Assembly: GCA_018715125.1 (NCBI GenBank)
Contig: DVMF01000069.1
Span: 1 to 40,853, forward strand
Source of the DNA: Candidatus Coprousia avicola
GTDB lineage: Bacteria > Actinomycetota > Coriobacteriia > Coriobacteriales > Coriobacteriaceae
Length of the DNA: 40,853 bases
Reading direction: 5' to 3'
Below, piece by piece: positions 18,087-28,232 of this stretch. The position numbers were made by a program, and so were the translations under genes. The notes below the pieces were generated by a model that was not told the DNA's origin, did not search any database, and was given only the letters and a program-made list of their open reading frames with translations. How positions within the stretch are numbered: position 1 is the stretch's first letter; every line of letters begins with the position of its first letter.

Positions 18087-18974
18087 TTAGATTTCTTCAG
18101 TGCGTTTAGCAGGGCTCTTTGATGGAAAGATGGCTTGCGCCGCGCTCGCCTGCCGCTCGATGCGGCGCAGGAGCTGGACGCGCATCGTCTCATAACGGGG
18201 GACCAGTCGCTCCTCGCCGAGCGCACGCAAATCGCGCAGCGCCTCCTCGGTACGGCCGTGCGCCGCCTCATAGGCATCCAAGCGCAGGCGCGCGCCGGCA
18301 CGATTCACCCGCTTGTCCGCAAGAACCATCTGCTCGCGAAAAAACCGCGCATCCCCTTCAGTCCATTGCGCGGGAGGCGTGAAGCCGAGCTCGAGGCTGC
18401 GCACGATATCGCGCGCCGCCACGGCGACCTTGGTGCCGGGTCGATACTGCGCCGCCATCTCGCGGATGCGGCCGAGCGCCTCATCGCGCCGCGCAACGTC
18501 TCCGCGTGCGTCGAAAAGAAGCGCCTCGAGGTCGAGGCACCGCAGGCGCTGGGTGCTTTTGCGTCCCCGAAACGTCAGGCCCTGGATGCGCTCGAGCGCA
18601 GCACCATCGAGCCCGTCGAAGTAATCGCAGAAGGCGAGCTCGAGCTCGAGTGCGGCGCGCGCCTGGCGCCGGCGCGTGCGGGCTAGACCCATCTCGAGCA
18701 CCGCACGGTATGTGGCGACGTCCGCATCCTGCCAGAGGATGCCCTGCAGCTGCTCCACCTCTCGCGCCACGCGGCGCAGGAAGAGAAAAACCGTCACGAG
18801 GATGCCCGCGAGCCCGGCGACGTACAGCCACATCCATCCGCACTCGATACCCCAGATCCCCGCGGCGCCGAGCGCGACCGTTGCGATGATGCCCCGTATC
18901 CTGAGGCCGCGCAGGGTCGTCCGATGGCTGTTGAACGTTTCCTCTGCGGTCATACCCTCGAATGGCGAATGCAT
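18087..18974 (-). CDS. Uncharacterised two-TM protein with helical cytoplasmic domain
   Basis: The 295-residue product begins at an ATG with AAGGAG upstream. Two hydrophobic segments follow each other at about residues 26-43 and 47-66, separated by only a few residues, so both ends are probably cytoplasmic. The remaining 225 residues are rich in Ala, Arg, Glu and Leu and look like repeated helix pairs, such as ATYRAVLEMGLARTRRRQARAALELELAF. This suggests a TPR-like solenoid, although no repeat fits the consensus well. The gene is upstream of groES on the same strand with a 127-bp gap that contains the groES promoter. I do not recognise a family. Confidence 0.65.
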   Translation of the reverse strand: MHSPFEGMTAEETFNSHRTTLRGLRIRGIIATVALGAAGIWGIECGWMWLYVAGLAGILVTVFLFLRRVAREVEQLQGILWQDADVATYRAVLEMGLARTRRRQARAALELELAFCDYFDGLDGAALERIQGLTFRGRKSTQRLRCLDLEALLFDARGDVARRDEALGRIREMAAQYRPGTKVAVAARDIVRSLELGFTPPAQWTEGDARFFREQMVLADKRVNRAGARLRLDAYEAAHGRTEEALRDLRALGEERLVPRYETMRVQLLRRIERQASAAQAIFPSKSPAKRTEEI

Positions 18975-19042
18975 CGCAACTCCTTGTCGCCGTCGATCTT
19001 TCGCCCATCTTAACCCATGGCGCGCCCCTTTGTTGGCACCGT

Positions 19043-19097
19043 GTTTCCGACGTGTTCAAAACACGTTTCCGCGTCGTTTCCCCCACGTTTCGAAACC
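19043..19097. promoter_or_regulatory. Array of five 11-bp direct repeats upstream of gltB
   Basis: Units starting at 19043, 19054, 19065, 19076 and 19087 open with GTTTC, GTTCA, GTTTC, GTTTC and GTTTC. The pitch is exactly 11 bp, as in binding arrays of OmpR-family regulators such as PhoP and actinobacterial GlnR. The fifth unit overlaps GAAAC-N6-GTAAC (19092-19107), which equals two alternating half-sites of the published GlnR box. The array lies 117 bp before gltB. It sits upstream of a possible -10 TACCAT (19129-19134), which lacks a good -35, so activation is plausible. Confidence 0.6.
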
Positions 19098-19213
19098 AGC
19101 GGGTAACATGCCCCGCTCAGCCCCCCGCTACCATGCCGGCCAGACACATCTCGGCGCGCCGTCTCGTGCGCGCAGCCGCACCCATCCGATCACCCCACTA
19201 GAGAGGGGACACC

Positions 19214-22200
19214 ATGCCCTACCTCGCATCGAGCGCATCCACGCACGATTCCTGCGGGAAGCGCAGCCTCTACCGCCCCGAATTCGAACACGACGCCTGC
19301 GGCATCGGCGCGCTCGCCAACATCAACGGCGAGAAGTCCCATCAGATACTCGACGACGCGCTCTCGGTCCTCGTCAACCTCGAGCATCGCGGCGGAACGG
19401 GTCTCGAAAAGAATACCGGGGACGGCGCGGGCGTGCTCTTTCAGATACCGCATCACTTCTTCCGCAAGGAAGCGCAGAAGTGCGGGCAGATCCTTCCCGC
19501 GGAAGGCGACTACGGCACAGCCATGGTGTTTTTCCCCCAAAGCGAGCAGGGCGTCGCGTGCGCCCGCAGCGTATTTGAAGAGGGTTGCGCCGAGGCCGGC
19601 GTGCCCGTGCTCTTCTGGCGCGAGGTCCCCGTCGACCCCCACGATATCGGCGAGACGGCGCGCGCCTGCATGCCCACCATCCTGCAGGCGTTTCTGGGGC
19701 GGCCCGAGGGGGTGTCTCGGGGAGACGCCTTCGAGCGCAAGCTTTACGTGTGCCGCCGCATCATAGAGAAGCGTGCCGAGGGCGCGCACGCGCTCAAGGG
19801 GCAGATCTTCTACATCTGCAGCATGTCGAGCCGCACCATCGTCTACAAGGGCATGCTCGTGGCAACCCAGATGCGGCGCTTCTTCTCCGACCTCAACGAC
19901 GCCGCCGTCAAAACCGCCGTGGCGCTCGTGCACTCGCGCTACTCCACCAACACGACCCCCAGCTGGGAGCGCGCCCACCCCAACCGCCTCATCATCCATA
20001 ACGGCGAGATCAACACGCTCAAGGGCAACGTCAACTGGATTCGCGCCCGCGAACCGAACCTCTACTCGCCGGTGCTCGGCCACGACCTCTCCTGTGTGCT
20101 CCCCATCATCAACCGCGAGGGATCGGACTCCGCCGTCCTCGACAACGTGCTCGAGTTCCTCGTCATGAACGGCCGACCGCTCTCGCGCGCGGTCACGATG
20201 CTTCTGCCCGAGCCGTGGGACAACAACGGGACCCTGAGCCCGGAGCGCCGCGCCTACGACGCCTACCAGTCCATGCTGATGGAGCCCTGGGACGGTCCCG
20301 CCGCCATCGCCTTTACCGATGGGCGCACGCTCGGCGCCGCCCTCGACCGCAACGGCCTGCGCCCCGCCCGCTACTACGTGACGCGCGACGACCGCTTCCT
20401 GCTCTCGAGCGAGGTGGGCACCATCGACGTCGACCCCGAGGACATTCTCGCCACCGGCTGCCTCGGCCCCGGCGAGATGCTCGAGGTGGACTTCGCCCGC
20501 GGGCGCATCATCTATAGCGACGAGCTTCGCCGCCGCTACGCCAAGGAGAAGCCCTACCGCGACTGGATCGCCGAGGAGACGCTCGAGCTTGCCGACCTTG
20601 CCGACGGCAGCCCGCTGCCCCATGAGGACGCCGAGGTTCCCGCCGCGCTCGCCGCAGCGAAACTCGGCCACCATTTTGACGACGTCGAGGAGATCGTGCG
20701 CCCCATGGCGACAACGGGCAAGACTCCGCTTGCCTCCATGGGCGTCGACGCGCCGCTCGCCTGCCTCTCCACCAAGACGCGCTCGTTTTTCGATTACTTC
20801 TACGAGCTCTTCGCCCAGGTCACCAACCCGCCTATCGACGCCCTGCGCGAGAGCTTCGTCACCTCCACCATCCTCTACCTCGGCAACCACGGCAACCTGC
20901 TCGAGGACGCACGCGCGGCGTGCCGTCTCGTCCGGCTGCCCCAACCGCTCCTGACCGAAGACGATCTCTCCCGCATCGCCGCCATCGACAGCGAGAGCTT
21001 CCACGTGGCGCGCCTTCGCGCCGTGTTTGAGCGCCAGGCAGGCCCGGGCGCCCTCGCGCGGGCGCTGGACGCCCTGACCGGCGCAGCAGAGGAGGCGGTC
21101 CGCGCGGGGGCCAACATCATCATCCTCTCCGACCGCGCCGCCGCGCACGAGGTCCCCATCCCCTCGCTTCTCGCGGTGGGAGCGGTGCACCATCATCTGA
21201 TGCGGGCCGGCATGCGCACCTTTGCCGACATCGTCGTTGAAAGCGGCGACGCCCTCTCGGCGCACGACCTCGCCGCGCTTATCGGCTACTCGGCGAGCGG
21301 TATCTTGCCGTACGGGGCGCACGCCCAGATCGAGCGGCTCGCCGCGCAGGGGGACTTGACCGATGCCGCCGGCCGTACGCTCACCGCGGCGGAGGCCATC
21401 GAGAACTACAACCGCGCCGCGTGCGCGGGCATCGTGGCCATCATGTCCAAGATGGGCATCTCCACCGCACAAAGCTACCATTCCGCGCAGATATTCGAGG
21501 CGGTGGGGCTTGCCGACGAGCTCGTGGAGCGCTACTTCACCGGCACGGTGAGCCGCGTGGGCGGCCTCACCCTCGCCGACCTGCAGTGCGAGCTCGAGCA
21601 GCGCTTCGATGCGGCGCAGGCCCTGCTCGAGAGCCCGGCGCCCGAACAGCTCCCCACCCTCGGCCTCACCACGTGGCGGCCCCAGGGCGGAGAGGACCAC
21701 CTCATCGACCCCGCGGTCATCTACACGCTGCAGCGCGCCTGCCGCGAGGGGGACTTTGAGCTCTTCCTCGCCTACAGCGACCTCGTGCACCGTCCCGGTC
21801 GCGCCGTGAGGCTGCGCGACCTCATCGATTTCGATGCGAGCGACCGGACGCCCGTCCCCCTCGAGGAGGTCGAGAGCGCCCGGAGCATCGTCAGGCGCTT
21901 CAACACGGGCGCCATGTCGTTTGGCTCGATCAGCCCCGAGGCCCACGAATGCATGGCGATCGCCATGAACCGCCTGCACGGCCGCTCTAACTCGGGTGAG
22001 GGCGGCGAGGATCCCCGGCGCGAGACGCCGCTCGCCAACGGCGACTCAAAGAACTCCGCCATCAAGCAGGTCGCCTCGGGGCGCTTTGGCGTGACGAGCC
22101 GTTACCTCGTCTCCGCAACCGAGATCCAGATCAAGATGGCTCAGGGCGCCAAACCGGGTGAGGGCGGCCACCTCCCCGGCAAAAAGGTGTATCCCTGGGT

Positions 22201-23848
22201 TGCCGAGGTGCGCCGCTCGACACCGGGCATCGGCCTCATCTCTCCCCCGCCGCACCACGATATCTACTCCATCGAGGACTTGGCCGAGCTCATCTTCGAC
22301 CTCAAATGCGCCAACCCGCGGGCGCGCGTCAGCGTGAAGCTCGTCTCCGAGGCGGGCGTGGGCACGATTGCCACCGGCGTCGCCAAGGGCGGGGCGAACA
22401 AGATCCTCATCTCGGGACATAACGGCGGCTCTGGCGCCGCGCCGCGCGACTCCATCTGGCATGCGGGGCTCCCCCTCGAGCTCGGTCTGGCCGAGACGCA
22501 GCAGACGCTGGTCATGAACGGTCTGCGGTCGCGCGTGGTGCTCGAGGCCGACGGCAAGCTCATGGACGGCACCGACGTCGCCGTCGCCTGCCTGCTGGGC
22601 GCCGAGGAGTTCGGCTTCGCCACCATGCCGCTTATCGCGCTCGGCTGCCTCATGCAGCGCGACTGCCATCAGGACACCTGCCCGGCGGGCATCGCCACGC
22701 AGAACTGCCGCCTGCGCCGAGGCTTTGCCGGCAAGCCCGAGCACGTGGAGCACTTCATGCTCTTTGTGGCCGAGCAGCTGCGCGGCATCATGGCGCGGCT
22801 CGGGTTCCGCACCGTCGAGGACATGGTCGGCCACACCGAGTGCCTGCGCCAGGTGAGCGTCCCCAAGAACCGCAAGGCCAACCTCGTGGACCTGTCCTGC
22901 GTGCTCGCACCCGCCCGCTGCGCGTTCGGGGCGCACATCCCCGGGGCCGATGGCGCCCACTACCTGCCCGAGATGGCCGCCGACGCCGGGCTTGACACCA
23001 CACTCGACAGCACGCTTCTCATCCCCCTGACGGCAAGCGCGCGCGAGCACCTGCGCCCCGTGCGCTTTGCGGTCGATATCGACAACGTCAACCGCTGCGT
23101 GGGCACCATGCTCGGCAGCATCGTGACGCGGGCGCATCCCGAGGGGCTCCCCGAGGGATCGGTGACCGTGGATGCCACGGGATCTGCCGGACAGAGCTTT
23201 GGCGCCTTCCTGCCCGCGGGCATCACCCTAAACGTCACGGGTGATGCCAACGACTACGTGGGAAAGGGTCTTTCCGGCGGCATCGTCACGGTGCGCCCGC
23301 ACGAAGCGGCCACCTATAAGTTTGACGAGAACGTCATCGTGGGCAACGTCGCCTTCTTTGGCGCCACGGGCGGCAGGGGATTTGTGAACGGCCTCGCCGG
23401 CCAGCGCTTCGCCGTGCGCAACTCCGGTGCGACGCTGGTGGTCGAGGGCACGGGCGCCCATGGCTGCGAGTACATGACCGGCGGACGCGTGCTGGTGCTC
23501 GGCGAGGTGGGTCAGAACTTTGCCGCCGGCATGACGGGCGGCATCGCCTATGTGTACGACGAGCGCGGGACCTTGGCCGAGCGCCTGAACGCCGAGCTCG
23601 TGCGCCTGCGCCCGCCCACCGATGCGGAACTCGACGAGATCCACTCCCTCATAGAGGAGCATGTCGAGCGGACGGCGAGCCCTCGCGGCATCAAGCTCCT
23701 GTATCGCTTTGCCGCGGAGGCGAAGCGCTTCCGCGTGGTCGCCCCCGTGGAATACGAGCGCGTGCACGAGATCGTCACCGCCGCCGAGCGCGCCGGCGCC
23801 ACGCGCGAGCAAGCGCTCGAGAAGGCCTTTGCCGCCGTCACCGCCTAG
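19214..23848 (+). CDS. gltB: Glutamate synthase, large subunit
   Basis: The 1544-residue enzyme makes two glutamates from glutamine and 2-oxoglutarate. A propeptide precedes the glutaminase nucleophile Cys29 in EHDACGIGAL; cleavage before it is usual in this family. The central FMN domain includes the PGEGGHLPGKKV and GHNGGSGAAP motifs. The 3Fe-4S cysteines Cys1145, 1151 and 1156 have the classic spacing. A C-terminal beta-helix (GLSGGIVTV, and ATGGRGFVNGLAGQRFAVRNSG) closes the protein. Length is typical. The ATG at 19214 has a GAGAGGGG ribosome site. gltD follows after 66 bp. An 11-bp-phased regulator array upstream suggests nitrogen control. Confidence 0.97.
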   Translation: MPYLASSASTHDSCGKRSLYRPEFEHDACGIGALANINGEKSHQILDDALSVLVNLEHRGGTGLEKNTGDGAGVLFQIPHHFFRKEAQKCGQILPAEGDYGTAMVFFPQSEQGVACARSVFEEGCAEAGVPVLFWREVPVDPHDIGETARACMPTILQAFLGRPEGVSRGDAFERKLYVCRRIIEKRAEGAHALKGQIFYICSMSSRTIVYKGMLVATQMRRFFSDLNDAAVKTAVALVHSRYSTNTTPSWERAHPNRLIIHNGEINTLKGNVNWIRAREPNLYSPVLGHDLSCVLPIINREGSDSAVLDNVLEFLVMNGRPLSRAVTMLLPEPWDNNGTLSPERRAYDAYQSMLMEPWDGPAAIAFTDGRTLGAALDRNGLRPARYYVTRDDRFLLSSEVGTIDVDPEDILATGCLGPGEMLEVDFARGRIIYSDELRRRYAKEKPYRDWIAEETLELADLADGSPLPHEDAEVPAALAAAKLGHHFDDVEEIVRPMATTGKTPLASMGVDAPLACLSTKTRSFFDYFYELFAQVTNPPIDALRESFVTSTILYLGNHGNLLEDARAACRLVRLPQPLLTEDDLSRIAAIDSESFHVARLRAVFERQAGPGALARALDALTGAAEEAVRAGANIIILSDRAAAHEVPIPSLLAVGAVHHHLMRAGMRTFADIVVESGDALSAHDLAALIGYSASGILPYGAHAQIERLAAQGDLTDAAGRTLTAAEAIENYNRAACAGIVAIMSKMGISTAQSYHSAQIFEAVGLADELVERYFTGTVSRVGGLTLADLQCELEQRFDAAQALLESPAPEQLPTLGLTTWRPQGGEDHLIDPAVIYTLQRACREGDFELFLAYSDLVHRPGRAVRLRDLIDFDASDRTPVPLEEVESARSIVRRFNTGAMSFGSISPEAHECMAIAMNRLHGRSNSGEGGEDPRRETPLANGDSKNSAIKQVASGRFGVTSRYLVSATEIQIKMAQGAKPGEGGHLPGKKVYPWVAEVRRSTPGIGLISPPPHHDIYSIEDLAELIFDLKCANPRARVSVKLVSEAGVGTIATGVAKGGANKILISGHNGGSGAAPRDSIWHAGLPLELGLAETQQTLVMNGLRSRVVLEADGKLMDGTDVAVACLLGAEEFGFATMPLIALGCLMQRDCHQDTCPAGIATQNCRLRRGFAGKPEHVEHFMLFVAEQLRGIMARLGFRTVEDMVGHTECLRQVSVPKNRKANLVDLSCVLAPARCAFGAHIPGADGAHYLPEMAADAGLDTTLDSTLLIPLTASAREHLRPVRFAVDIDNVNRCVGTMLGSIVTRAHPEGLPEGSVTVDATGSAGQSFGAFLPAGITLNVTGDANDYVGKGLSGGIVTVRPHEAATYKFDENVIVGNVAFFGATGGRGFVNGLAGQRFAVRNSGATLVVEGTGAHGCEYMTGGRVLVLGEVGQNFAAGMTGGIAYVYDERGTLAERLNAELVRLRPPTDAELDEIHSLIEEHVERTASPRGIKLLYRFAAEAKRFRVVAPVEYERVHEIVTAAERAGATREQALEKAFAAVTA

Positions 23849-23914: not shown

Positions 23915-25438
23915 ATGGGAAAACCGGGAGCATTCCTCACCATCGACCGGGTCGCGCACCGTGCGCGCCCCGTCAGCGAACGAACGCAAGACTACCGCGA
24001 GCTCTATGTGGAGCCGGACGAGGCCGTGCGCCGCGCTCAGGCGAGCCGCTGCATGATGTGTGGCGTCGCCTTCTGCCAGACGGGGGCGCCCTTTGGGCAT
24101 GCGCGCCCGAGCGGCTGCCCGCTCCACAACCTCATTCCCGAGTGGAACGACCTCATCTGGCGCGGACGCTGGAGCGACGCCGCCCAGCGCCTGGCGCTCA
24201 CCAACCCCCTGCCCGAGTTCACCAGCCGCGTGTGCCCGGCGCTCTGCGAGGCCGCCTGCAATCTGGGCAGCGTTAACGACGAGCCCACCACGATCCATGA
24301 CAACGAGCGAGCCATCTCCGATTGGGAGTGGGCGCACGGCGGGCCGCGTCGCTTCGCGCCACCCGCCGAGGACGCCCCGCGCGTCGCCGTCGTGGGGTCG
24401 GGCCCGGCAGGCCTCGCCTGCGCCTGGGAGCTCGCGCGGCGGGGATTCAGGGTGACCGTGGTGGAGCGCGCGGATCGCGCCGGCGGCCTGCTCATGTACG
24501 GCATTCCCGCCATGAAGCTCGAGAAGGACGTCGTCGCGCGGCGCACGGCGCTGATGGAGGAGCTCGGCATCCGCTTCATGCTCGGCGTCGATGCCGCCGA
24601 GCACGAGGTCGCGCAACAGCTTCTCGCCGACAACGACGCCGTCATCCTCACCGTGGGCGCCAGACGCGCACGCCCCCTCAACGCGCCCGGCGCCGACGGC
24701 CCGGGGGTCGTCTTCGCGCTGGACTACCTCACCGCCGCCACCCGGGCGGTGCTCGGAGGAGATACCGCTCCCGCCGCCCTCTCCGCCCGCGACCGCAATG
24801 TGGTGGTCATTGGCGGCGGCGACACCGGCAACGACTGCATCGCCACTGCGGTGCGCCAGGGCGCGCGTAGCGTACGCCAGCTCGAGCTCACGCCCCGGCC
24901 CGCCGACCGGCGCGCGCCCGATAACCCTTGGCCCGAATGGCCCCAGGTGCTTAAGACCGATTACGGTCAAGAGGAGGCCATCGCCCTCAGCGGAGACGAG
25001 ATACGCGCCTGGTCGGTCGACACCCGCGAGGTCGTGCGCGGCGCCGACGGGTCGGTGCAGGCGCTGCGCGTCGTGGATCTTGATTGGACGACGGGCTCGC
25101 CCGAGGCGGTTCCCGGCACCGCGCGTACCATCCCCTGTGACCTCGTGCTCATCGCCTGCGGCTTCACCGGAGCGGAGCCGGATGTCTTCGACGCCTTCGG
25201 CGTTACCTTCGCCGAGGCGGGCCGACCGCTACCCCTCACGACGGCACCAACGAGCCATCGCTGCGCCCTCACCGATGCGGTATCGCCCTCAAACGACAGC
25301 GAGCCCGAAGGGGCCAGGACGGCTCCCCTGTTTGTCGCAGGCGACGCCCGCAACGGCTCTACGCTCGTCGTTTCCGCTATCGCCGACGCCCTCGCCTGTG
25401 TCGATGAGGTCGTCGAGACCCTTCGCGGACGCGTCTGA
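23915..25438 (+). CDS. gltD: Glutamate synthase, small subunit
   Basis: The 507-residue flavoprotein passes electrons from NAD(P)H to the large subunit. The N-terminal cysteines that bind two low-potential 4Fe-4S clusters are visible (RCMMCGVAFCQTG, and CPALCEAACNLG). The FAD fold follows (VAVVGSGPAGLACAWELARRG) and then the pyridine nucleotide fold (VVVIGGGDTGNDCIATAVRQGA). The C-terminal GDARNGSTLVVSAIADALAC is the second FAD contact. It is slightly longer than most homologues. GAAAGGAACC precedes the ATG. It forms an operon with gltB. Confidence 0.96.
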   Translation: MGKPGAFLTIDRVAHRARPVSERTQDYRELYVEPDEAVRRAQASRCMMCGVAFCQTGAPFGHARPSGCPLHNLIPEWNDLIWRGRWSDAAQRLALTNPLPEFTSRVCPALCEAACNLGSVNDEPTTIHDNERAISDWEWAHGGPRRFAPPAEDAPRVAVVGSGPAGLACAWELARRGFRVTVVERADRAGGLLMYGIPAMKLEKDVVARRTALMEELGIRFMLGVDAAEHEVAQQLLADNDAVILTVGARRARPLNAPGADGPGVVFALDYLTAATRAVLGGDTAPAALSARDRNVVVIGGGDTGNDCIATAVRQGARSVRQLELTPRPADRRAPDNPWPEWPQVLKTDYGQEEAIALSGDEIRAWSVDTREVVRGADGSVQALRVVDLDWTTGSPEAVPGTARTIPCDLVLIACGFTGAEPDVFDAFGVTFAEAGRPLPLTTAPTSHRCALTDAVSPSNDSEPEGARTAPLFVAGDARNGSTLVVSAIADALACVDEVVETLRGRV

Positions 25439-25833: not shown

Positions 25834-27924
25834 TTATACGTAGAACAGCATGTCGTCGTAGGTCGGCACCGGCCAGTAGTCATGCGCGACCACGTCCTCC
25901 ATGGCGTCCACCGCAGCCCGCAGCGCCTCCATGGCGGGAGCGACCTCGTGGGCGTAGACGTTCGCCTTCTCCTGCCAGCCCTCGGTCTCGAGCGCACGCG
26001 CATGGACGTCGCGCAGGGCGAGGATGGCCTCGTTGATGGCGGTGACGCCCTCGAGCAGCTTCTCCAGGAGGTCGCGCTCGAAGTTCAGCGTGCTCACCCC
26101 GCCTGCGCCCATAACCGTATCGATGCCCTTGGCGATCTTGGTCGCATAGGCGCTGATGCGCGGCAGATAGGTCCGGCGCGCCATGCGCTCCATGGTGCGC
26201 GCCTCGATGTTCATGCGCTTGGCGTACTTCTCGAGTTTGACCTCGTAGCGGCTCTCCACCTCGGCCTTATCGAGCACACCCATCTCCGCAAAGAGAGAGC
26301 GCGCCTTCTCGCTCACCAGCGCGGGCAGCGCATCGGCCGTCGTCGGCAGGTTAGCGAGGCCGCGGCGCGCCGCCTCCTCGTGCCACTCTTCCGCATAGCC
26401 GTTGCCGCCAAAGAGGATGCGCTGATGCTCGGTGAGCGTCGTGCGCACGAAGGCAAGTGCGCGCTCGGCGAAGTCCGATGCGGCGACACCCTCCATCGCA
26501 TCGGCAAAGCGCTTGAGCTCATGGGCGACGGCGGCGTCGAGCACCATGTTGGCGTCCGATACGTTGACCGCGGAGCCCGGCATGCGGAACTCGAACTTGT
26601 TGCCGGTAAAGGCGAACGGGCTCGTGCGGTTGCGGTCGGAGTTGTCCTGCTGGAGCTTGGGCAGCACATCCGTGCCCAGGTCGAGCACGCCGTGCGCGGC
26701 ATGCACGCTCGCCTTGCCGTCGACGATCTTCTGCACGCACTCGGTAAGCAGGTCGCCCAAGAAGATGGAGATGATGGCGGGCGGCGCCTCGTTGGCACCC
26801 AAGCGATGGTCGTTGCCGCACGTGGCGACGCTCGCGCGCAAGAGGTCCTGATACTCGTCCACCGCCGCGATCACCGAGGCGAGAAAGACGAGGAACTGCA
26901 GGTTCTCCTCGGGCGTCTCGCCCGGGTCGAGCAGATTGGCATCCTCTGTGGCAATCGACCAGTTGTTGTGCTTGCCCGAGCCGTTGATGCCCTCGAAGGG
27001 TTTCTCGTGCTGCAGGCACACGAGCCCGTGCCGGCTCGCGATGATGCGCATCTCCTCCATGGTGATGAGGTTCTCGTCCACGGCGCGATTCGCGTTGGTA
27101 AAGACGGGGGCGAGCTCGTGCTGGCAGGGAGCGACCTCGTTGTGCTTGGTCTTGGCGGCGATGCCGAGCGCCCAGAGCTCGTCATCGAGCTCCTTCATGA
27201 AGTTGTTGACGGTGGGGCGAATGGCGCCGAAGTAATGCTCCTCGAGCTCCTGGCCCTTGCAGGGCGCCGCGCCAAACAGCGTGCGCCCCGTGATGATAAG
27301 ATCCGGGCGGCGCGCGTAGTCCTCCTCTTTGATGAGGAAGTACTCCTGCTCGTTACCGACGGACGGCACCACGCGCTTGGGGTGCTTGCCAAAGAGGGCG
27401 AGCACGCGCTTGGCCTCGCGGTCGATTGCCGCCATGGAGCGCAACAGCGGCGTCTTCTTATCGAGCGCCTCACCGGTATAGGAGCAAAACGCCGTGGGGA
27501 TGCAGAGCACCTCGTCCTTGATGAAGGCGGGCGACGTGGGATCCCAGGCGGTGTAGCCGCGCGCCTCGAACGTGGCGCGCAGCCCGCCGTTGGGGAAGCT
27601 CGACGCATCCGGCTCGCCCTGGACGAGCTCCTTGCCCTTGAACTGGGAGATGGCGGTACCGTCTCCCATGGGCTCCAAGAACGCCTCGTGCTTCTCTGAG
27701 GTGATGCAGCTGAGCGGCTGGAACCAGTGCGCGTAATGCGTCGCACCGCGCTCGATGGCCCAGGCCTTCATGGCGTGGGCGACCGCGTTCGCCAGATCAA
27801 GGTCGAGCGGCTTTCCCTCGTTTACGGTCGCATGCAGCTTCTTATACACATCTTTGGGCAGATAGCGCTTCTGCGCCGCATCGCCAAACACCATCGTGCC
27901 AAACCGTTCCTCCAACGCAGGCAT
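25834..27924 (-). CDS. glnN: Glutamine synthetase, type III
   Basis: The 696-residue protein matches the large GSIII class, not the 440-470-residue GSI. Visible are VFGDAAQKRYLPKDVYKKL near the start, YFLIKEEDYARRPDLIITGRTLFG, NEVAPCQHELAPVF (metal and substrate ligands), GKHNNWSIAT and the Arg-containing NRTSPFAFTGNKFEFRMPGS. It makes glutamine from glutamate, ammonia and ATP, giving the substrate for gltBD next door. The ATG at 27924 has GGAGGAGG upstream, so the longer frame to 27981 is rejected. An array of 11-bp-spaced half-sites and a -10 box lie 90-155 bp upstream. Confidence 0.95.
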   Translation of the reverse strand: MPALEERFGTMVFGDAAQKRYLPKDVYKKLHATVNEGKPLDLDLANAVAHAMKAWAIERGATHYAHWFQPLSCITSEKHEAFLEPMGDGTAISQFKGKELVQGEPDASSFPNGGLRATFEARGYTAWDPTSPAFIKDEVLCIPTAFCSYTGEALDKKTPLLRSMAAIDREAKRVLALFGKHPKRVVPSVGNEQEYFLIKEEDYARRPDLIITGRTLFGAAPCKGQELEEHYFGAIRPTVNNFMKELDDELWALGIAAKTKHNEVAPCQHELAPVFTNANRAVDENLITMEEMRIIASRHGLVCLQHEKPFEGINGSGKHNNWSIATEDANLLDPGETPEENLQFLVFLASVIAAVDEYQDLLRASVATCGNDHRLGANEAPPAIISIFLGDLLTECVQKIVDGKASVHAAHGVLDLGTDVLPKLQQDNSDRNRTSPFAFTGNKFEFRMPGSAVNVSDANMVLDAAVAHELKRFADAMEGVAASDFAERALAFVRTTLTEHQRILFGGNGYAEEWHEEAARRGLANLPTTADALPALVSEKARSLFAEMGVLDKAEVESRYEVKLEKYAKRMNIEARTMERMARRTYLPRISAYATKIAKGIDTVMGAGGVSTLNFERDLLEKLLEGVTAINEAILALRDVHARALETEGWQEKANVYAHEVAPAMEALRAAVDAMEDVVAHDYWPVPTYDDMLFYV

Positions 27925-28010
27925 AGGCGGTTCCTCCTCCCACGGCATTCGCCGTGCCATCGGGACTGCGATGGCGGCCACGTCCTCTGGCCTCCATCCG
28001 GACGCGATTT

Positions 28011-28081
28011 AAGATAAGAGGACGGTGTTACAGGGCGGTTGCCCCTTCGTAACCGGCGCGCTTCCAGGTGGTGAACACTTA
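28011..28081 (-). promoter_or_regulatory. GlnR/OmpR-type site array and -10 box upstream of glnN
   Basis: Read on the minus strand, half-sites GAAGC (28060-28064), GTTAC (28049-28053), GCAAC (28038-28042) and GTAAC (28027-28031) are separated by exactly 6 bp each. This matches the alternating GTNAC-N6-GAAAC pattern of actinobacterial GlnR boxes with one mismatch in each GAAAC-type site. A -10-like TATCTT (28011-28016) follows without a good -35. A further palindrome GAAACGGTTTC lies at 28087-28097. The array is upstream of the -10, as for an activator. Confidence 0.6.
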
Positions 28082-28232
28082 CGGTCGAAACGGTTTCCTG
28101 CCGATGGCGACCTCGTTGCCATTCCGTAGCAGGCCTGTTTCCACGAGATGACGCGACAACGGGGCACCGCCGCGGGTGCGGTGCCGGCGCCTGGCGTACT
28201 ATAGAGCCGATACGCAACGGAGAGGAGACGCT

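Follow-up and report, generated by a model that had tools for sequence, protein, structure and literature searches.

A phased array upstream of gltB in Candidatus Coprousia avicola is a probable operator of a GlnR-type regulator

The region upstream of gltB in a 40,853-nucleotide contig of Candidatus Coprousia avicola (here called the window) carries short repeats at an 11-bp pitch, raising the question of which regulator, if any, reads them. The sequence comparisons below make it highly probable that an orphan OmpR-family regulator of the GlnR type, whose gene follows glnA, uses the array as its operator; we infer binding at gltB, the direction of regulation and the signal.

The first-pass annotation had described five GTTTC-like units with a weaker one ahead of them. 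All are in 11-bp register, and four match GTTTC exactly on the plus strand (19043, 19065, 19076 and 19087); the unit at 19054 is degenerate (GTTCA) and, like the weak GTTGG at 19032, agrees with GTTTC at three of five positions. Read on the minus strand, these distal half-sites are GAAAC-type and point away from gltB. The GAAAC-N6-GTAAC described after the last unit is also present, and because the 19087 unit and the GAAAC at 19092 together read as the palindrome GTTTCGAAAC, the array consists of two back-to-back blocks, with six half-sites facing outwards on the minus strand and two facing gltB (Table 1). A pair of 5-bp sites set 6 nt apart at a nitrogen promoter, the arrangement of a GlnR box, is present before gltB.

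Table 1 Features of the window around the gltB array and the second putative target
Feature	Position	Strand	Basis
Divergent 295-aa ORF sharing the array-bearing intergenic region with gltB	18087-18974	-	no Pfam match
gltB array, distal block of six 11-bp-phased half-sites	19032..19091	-	sequence reading; in phase also in An307
Palindrome GTTTCGAAAC linking both blocks	19087..19096	.	sequence; alignment of Collinsella loci
Promoter-proximal GlnR-type box GAAAC-N6-GTAAC (GAAAC 19092, GTAAC 19103)	19092..19107	+	sequence, spacer and geometry counts
Putative -10-like TACCAT, 21 nt after the box, conserved	19129..19134	+	alignment and pattern counts
gltB, glutamate synthase large subunit, putative target	19214..23848	+	Pfam
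gltD-type small subunit, putative target, direction as gltB	23915..25438	+	Pfam
Type III glutamine synthetase, second putative target	25834..27981	-	Pfam PF12437
Phased half-sites before type III glutamine synthetase; proximal GTTAC-N6-GCAAC-N6-GTAAC, 10 nt, TATCTT	28011..28141	-	pattern scans

Scored as five GTTTC units, the gltB array reaches 23 of 25. Of 200 versions of the window simulated with an order-2 Markov model, none reached this value (best score 19, in one copy), and the reversed window held no five-unit score of at least 18; at that threshold, the whole window yielded the gltB array and one further hit, at 28093 in front of the type III glutamine synthetase. When any 5-mer and pitches from 8 to 14 were allowed, 1 of 168 other window pieces also scored 23. 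The pitch by itself therefore carries less weight than the first-pass annotation had implied; conservation decides.

Close relatives retain the array. The N-terminus of the window's GltB is 99% identical to that of Collinsella sp. An268, which marks the window as Collinsella DNA, and An268 has the array unchanged; An307 has every unit in register, two of them reading GTTAC instead of GTTTC. Neither loss of the array nor loss of its phase, the outcomes that would have spoken against it, was seen in these genomes. C. aerofaciens and its close relatives retain a four-half-site core, GTTAC-N6-GTTTC GAAAC-N6-GAAAC, and the palindrome is kept across seven aligned Collinsella loci, bar one base in An307. 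In up to 300 bp before gltB at 51 Coriobacteriia loci, paired GWAAC sites occurred 38 times at a spacer of 6, four times at a spacer of 17 (6+11) and never at any other spacer from 0 to 19, counts that, like those of phase, include close relatives and so do not represent independent events. Spacer-6 pairs occurred twice in 98.8 kb of control DNA farther upstream in Coriobacteriia gltB loci. Counted by locus, 27/51 Coriobacteriia gltB upstreams hold such a pair versus 0/29 outside the class, the strict GWAAC-N6-GWAAC being absent from 24/51. Same-orientation half-site pairs lay at multiples of 11 in 35 of 50 cases (11 Collinsella-like loci), against 4/92 in gltB coding DNA. The gltB array is not a product of chance, and GWAAC spacing in Coriobacteriia is specific. 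A chance origin, or a repeat with no regulatory role, could draw on the one equal-scoring piece in the free-motif scan; contradicted by conservation and by the spacer-6 and 11-bp phase tests, it deserves almost no credence.

Two further patterns were noted in these upstream regions. Olsenella/Thermophilibacter-type loci (L033, L035, L038, L040, L041, L044, L045 and L046) share a conserved run, in which eight G-N-N-N-C-like units at an 11-bp pitch can be read by eye in L038 (GTTTC, GTTTC, GCGTC, ATGGC, GAAAC, GTGGC, GTAGC, GTCTC); this may be an extended and more degenerate version of the gltB operator. C. aerofaciens-type loci (L016-L022 and L061) carry an inverted repeat, TCTGTAACA...TGTTACAGA, ~200 bp before gltB, and several of them have a second copy ~280-300 bp before the gene.

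The promoter beside the array is conserved in its geometry. That it lacks a good -35, as first proposed, agrees with the prediction of no sigma-70-like promoter in 18600-19600, where a conserved -10-like TACCAT is present. Where a -10 could be counted (TANNNT 6-26 nt downstream of the box), the distance from the end of the proximal half-site to TANNNT was 21 nt in 14/14 gltB promoters; in promoters of the window-type type III glutamine synthetase it was 10 nt (7/7), a difference of exactly one 11-bp unit. GWAAC-N6-GWAAC-N21-TANNNT has one exact match genome-wide, the gltB site from which the pattern was partly derived. Among glnA promoters, one (L161) has TANNNT at 10 nt, and most others have TGN plus a (G/C)ANA-type element at that distance, which by eye reads as an extended -10. 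In our model, regulator dimers would line up head-to-tail on the DNA, each 11-bp unit consisting of GNAAC plus 6 nt; with its end 21 nt ahead of the -10, GAAAC-N6-GTAAC would stand in for the missing -35 and recruit RNA polymerase to gltBD; and the inverted distal units may add occupancy through cooperativity. Binding could instead repress gltBD, since GlnR reportedly exerts negative control of ald, to go by the title of a study; a box upstream of the -10, at fixed distance and with no -35, is nevertheless the usual layout of an activator, and we regard repression as very unlikely.

The orientation of the distal block raises the main alternative: it may serve the divergent ORF of Table 1, leaving only GAAAC-N6-GTAAC to serve gltB, as two operators of the same GlnR-type protein. 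The minus-strand distal units are indeed GAAAC-type and aimed at this ORF, a TAAGAT lies at 19012-19007, and the phased distal block recurs in An307. The last unit, however, is by hand count 19 nt from TAAGAT here and ~15 nt in An307, compared with gaps of 10 or 21 nt elsewhere; C. aerofaciens, with unrelated upstream DNA, still keeps the inverted pair beside the core; and amtB has a like-oriented block, yet the next upstream gene in L105 runs the same way as amtB. We therefore judge two separate operators rather unlikely, though the divergent ORF could be co-regulated with gltB, and prefer a single GlnR-type operator for gltB.

Phased units also lie upstream of all three other nitrogen operons that were examined in the genome, namely those of glnA-glnR, of amtB-PII and of the window's type III glutamine synthetase. 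glnA, on contig C54, is preceded by GAAAC-N6-GTAAC, and phased units lie upstream of amtB and the PII gene that follows it on contig C20. Among family glnA upstream regions, 17/19 hold the relaxed pair and 14/19 the strict pair; amtB, found in 5/9 genus genomes, has the relaxed pair upstream in 5/5, and the amtB and window-type type III glutamine synthetase arrays match the relaxed pattern only (strict 0/5 and 0/7). Half-site pairs fall at multiples of 11 in 25/43 cases for amtB (5 loci), 45/52 for the window-type type III glutamine synthetase (7 loci) and 14/28 for glnA (19 loci). No phased array was found upstream of a second type III glutamine synthetase (G000:C11:64999, L167), and upstream regions of this C11 type lack the relaxed pair in 6/8 cases and hold it in 2/8; because only the window paralogue bears an array, different roles for the two are suggested. 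The same regulator would govern all these operons, so that ammonium uptake and assimilation would rise together at nitrogen shortage.

A first pattern search of the genome gave 11 matches, three at gltB, two at amtB and six elsewhere. In the genome-wide scan with the 10-nt pattern, a control pattern gave four matches. One 10-nt match (C73:108574), flanked by argS and an HD-domain-like gene (both named by reading), falls at an apparent terminator hairpin and was dropped; apart from glnA, the other one-mismatch matches, on C17, C60 and C73 (C73:33304), were likewise set aside, since the ORFs that contain or adjoin them show no obvious link to nitrogen.

A search for an OmpR-type regulator gene, suggested as a check by the first-pass annotation, found one directly downstream of glnA (L005; G000:C54:12403-13062). 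The genome has 12 Trans_reg_C matches, comprising 11 OmpR-type regulators and one weak match in a 1071-aa frame (L012). L005 has a C-terminal winged-helix DNA-binding domain (PF00486, E 2.5e-23) and no match to the receiver domain PF00072 even at E 10, being alone in this respect, as PF00072 is present in 10/10 of the other OmpR-type regulators. It is flanked by glnA and by an ORF judged HtrA-like by reading, and no kinase motif was flagged among ORFs of >180 aa within 1.5 kb, on which basis we call it an orphan. Against NCBIfam it had sub-cut-off matches only, and against the GlnR N-terminal domain PF21695 it scored 15.0 bits, under the cut-off of 27; we therefore use ‘GlnR-type’ and do not assign it as a curated GlnR.

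A phmmer search of the PDB with L005 placed 8hig and 8hih first (E 1.4e-28 and 8.4e-28), structures listed there as OmpR-family regulators only, which we take to be GlnR; a control regulator, L001, retrieved RegX3 first. The recognition helix reads GGTRTVDVHIRRIRSK in L005 and GGTRTVDVHVRRLRAK in 8hig. In a midpoint-rooted tree of 37 rows, L005 fell in a 28-row group with 8hig and 8hih, apart from nine of its own paralogues (100/99 support), the other rows being chosen best matches, with four (L117, L119, L120 and L142) used from the family copies L114-L143, the genome's own L003 left out and L187, L189, L191, L193, L194, L205 and L208 lost by the ORF filter. An L005-type regulator occurs in 59/59 family genomes, and glnA is directly upstream of the regulator gene in 20/20 regions (19 and L152). 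In the phylum sample, the best match in each of the eight same-order genomes had an E value no higher than 3.7e-51, and no match from outside the order was better than 3.1e-41. In 3/51 gltB loci a GlnR-like gene lies immediately before gltB (L048:1666-2355, L051:1803-2483 and L053:1779-2447); PF21695 scores of L048, L051 and L053 were 15.8, 20.1 and 18.6 bits. A structure predicted from three GlnR-like sequences was of low quality, with a mean pLDDT of 56.6.

The first-pass annotation had attributed the array to an OmpR-family regulator, naming PhoP and GlnR as candidates. We favour a GlnR-type protein because the half-sites and their 6-nt spacer equal GlnR boxes, the putative targets are nitrogen genes and one orphan GlnR-like regulator is encoded beside glnA. 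Described GlnR boxes comprise a and b sites separated by n6, with consensus gTnAc-n6-GaAAc (PMC10704036), and reported Streptomyces venezuelae sites include GAAAC-n6-GTAAC and GAAAC-n6-GAAAC (PMC3087709). The array could belong to another OmpR-family regulator, for example, a PhoP/PhoB-type phosphate regulator whose control of gltBD would amount to nutrient cross-talk: PHO boxes are described as tandem 11-nt direct repeats arranged head-to-tail (PMC4415409), and ten further OmpR-type regulators are encoded in the genome. The Streptomyces coelicolor PHO motif, GTTCACC (PMC4415409), nevertheless does not match the array units, the putative targets are nitrogen genes and L005 alone matches the recognition helix of 8hig and 8hih, so we hold such a regulator to be highly improbable and retain the GlnR-type assignment.

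GlnR-type nitrogen activators are well known in soil actinobacteria, and a literature search found no description of GlnR in Coriobacteriia or Collinsella. The Coriobacteriia system is very probably of the known GlnR kind, in a class for which no description was found; it varies from that kind in the divergence of its receiver and in arrays that are longer and inverted. The GlnR system would thereby extend to Coriobacteriia, and Collinsella and related gut bacteria would gain a candidate regulator for their nitrogen regulon, together with a motif and a promoter geometry, whose 10/21-nt rule lends itself to reporters in which half-site number and phase are easily varied. A more speculative reading, which we hold to be rather unlikely as a whole, is that Coriobacteriia have a divergent, probably phosphorylation-independent GlnR lineage, expressed from a glnA-glnR operon or, in some, from glnR-gltB. 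It would act cooperatively on long operators whose blocks stand back to back and keep an 11-bp phase with the -10 through gaps of 10 or 21 nt; half-site number would set promoter strength, and synthesis beside glutamine synthetase may couple sensing to the enzyme.

Sites of Bacillus GlnR and TnrA are short palindromes, not 11-bp arrays. The Bacillus proteins are alike in name and pathway but belong to another family, MerR (PMC10704036). PhoB/PhoP systems resemble the present one in their tandem 11-nt direct repeats and differ in motif, in targets and in a regulator described as phosphorylated by a sensor kinase (PMC4415409). The closest likeness is to GlnR of Streptomyces, Amycolatopsis and Mycobacterium, in 11-bp half-sites with a 6-nt spacer, glnA and amtB as targets, a near-identical recognition helix and an orphan OmpR-type protein with an atypical receiver (PMC10704036). 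For that GlnR, phosphorylation of the receiver aspartate is reported as not required and receivers as tetramerising in the activation complex (PMC10704036), and a third box at S. coelicolor amtB gave faster and larger activation (PMC5826061). In contrast to actinobacterial GlnR, glnR here lies beside glnA (or gltB), the receiver is too diverged for the PF21695 cut-off, putative targets include gltBD and a type III glutamine synthetase, and eight half-sites precede gltB in two back-to-back blocks, against a maximum of six for a single promoter according to a 2018 paper (PMC5826061).
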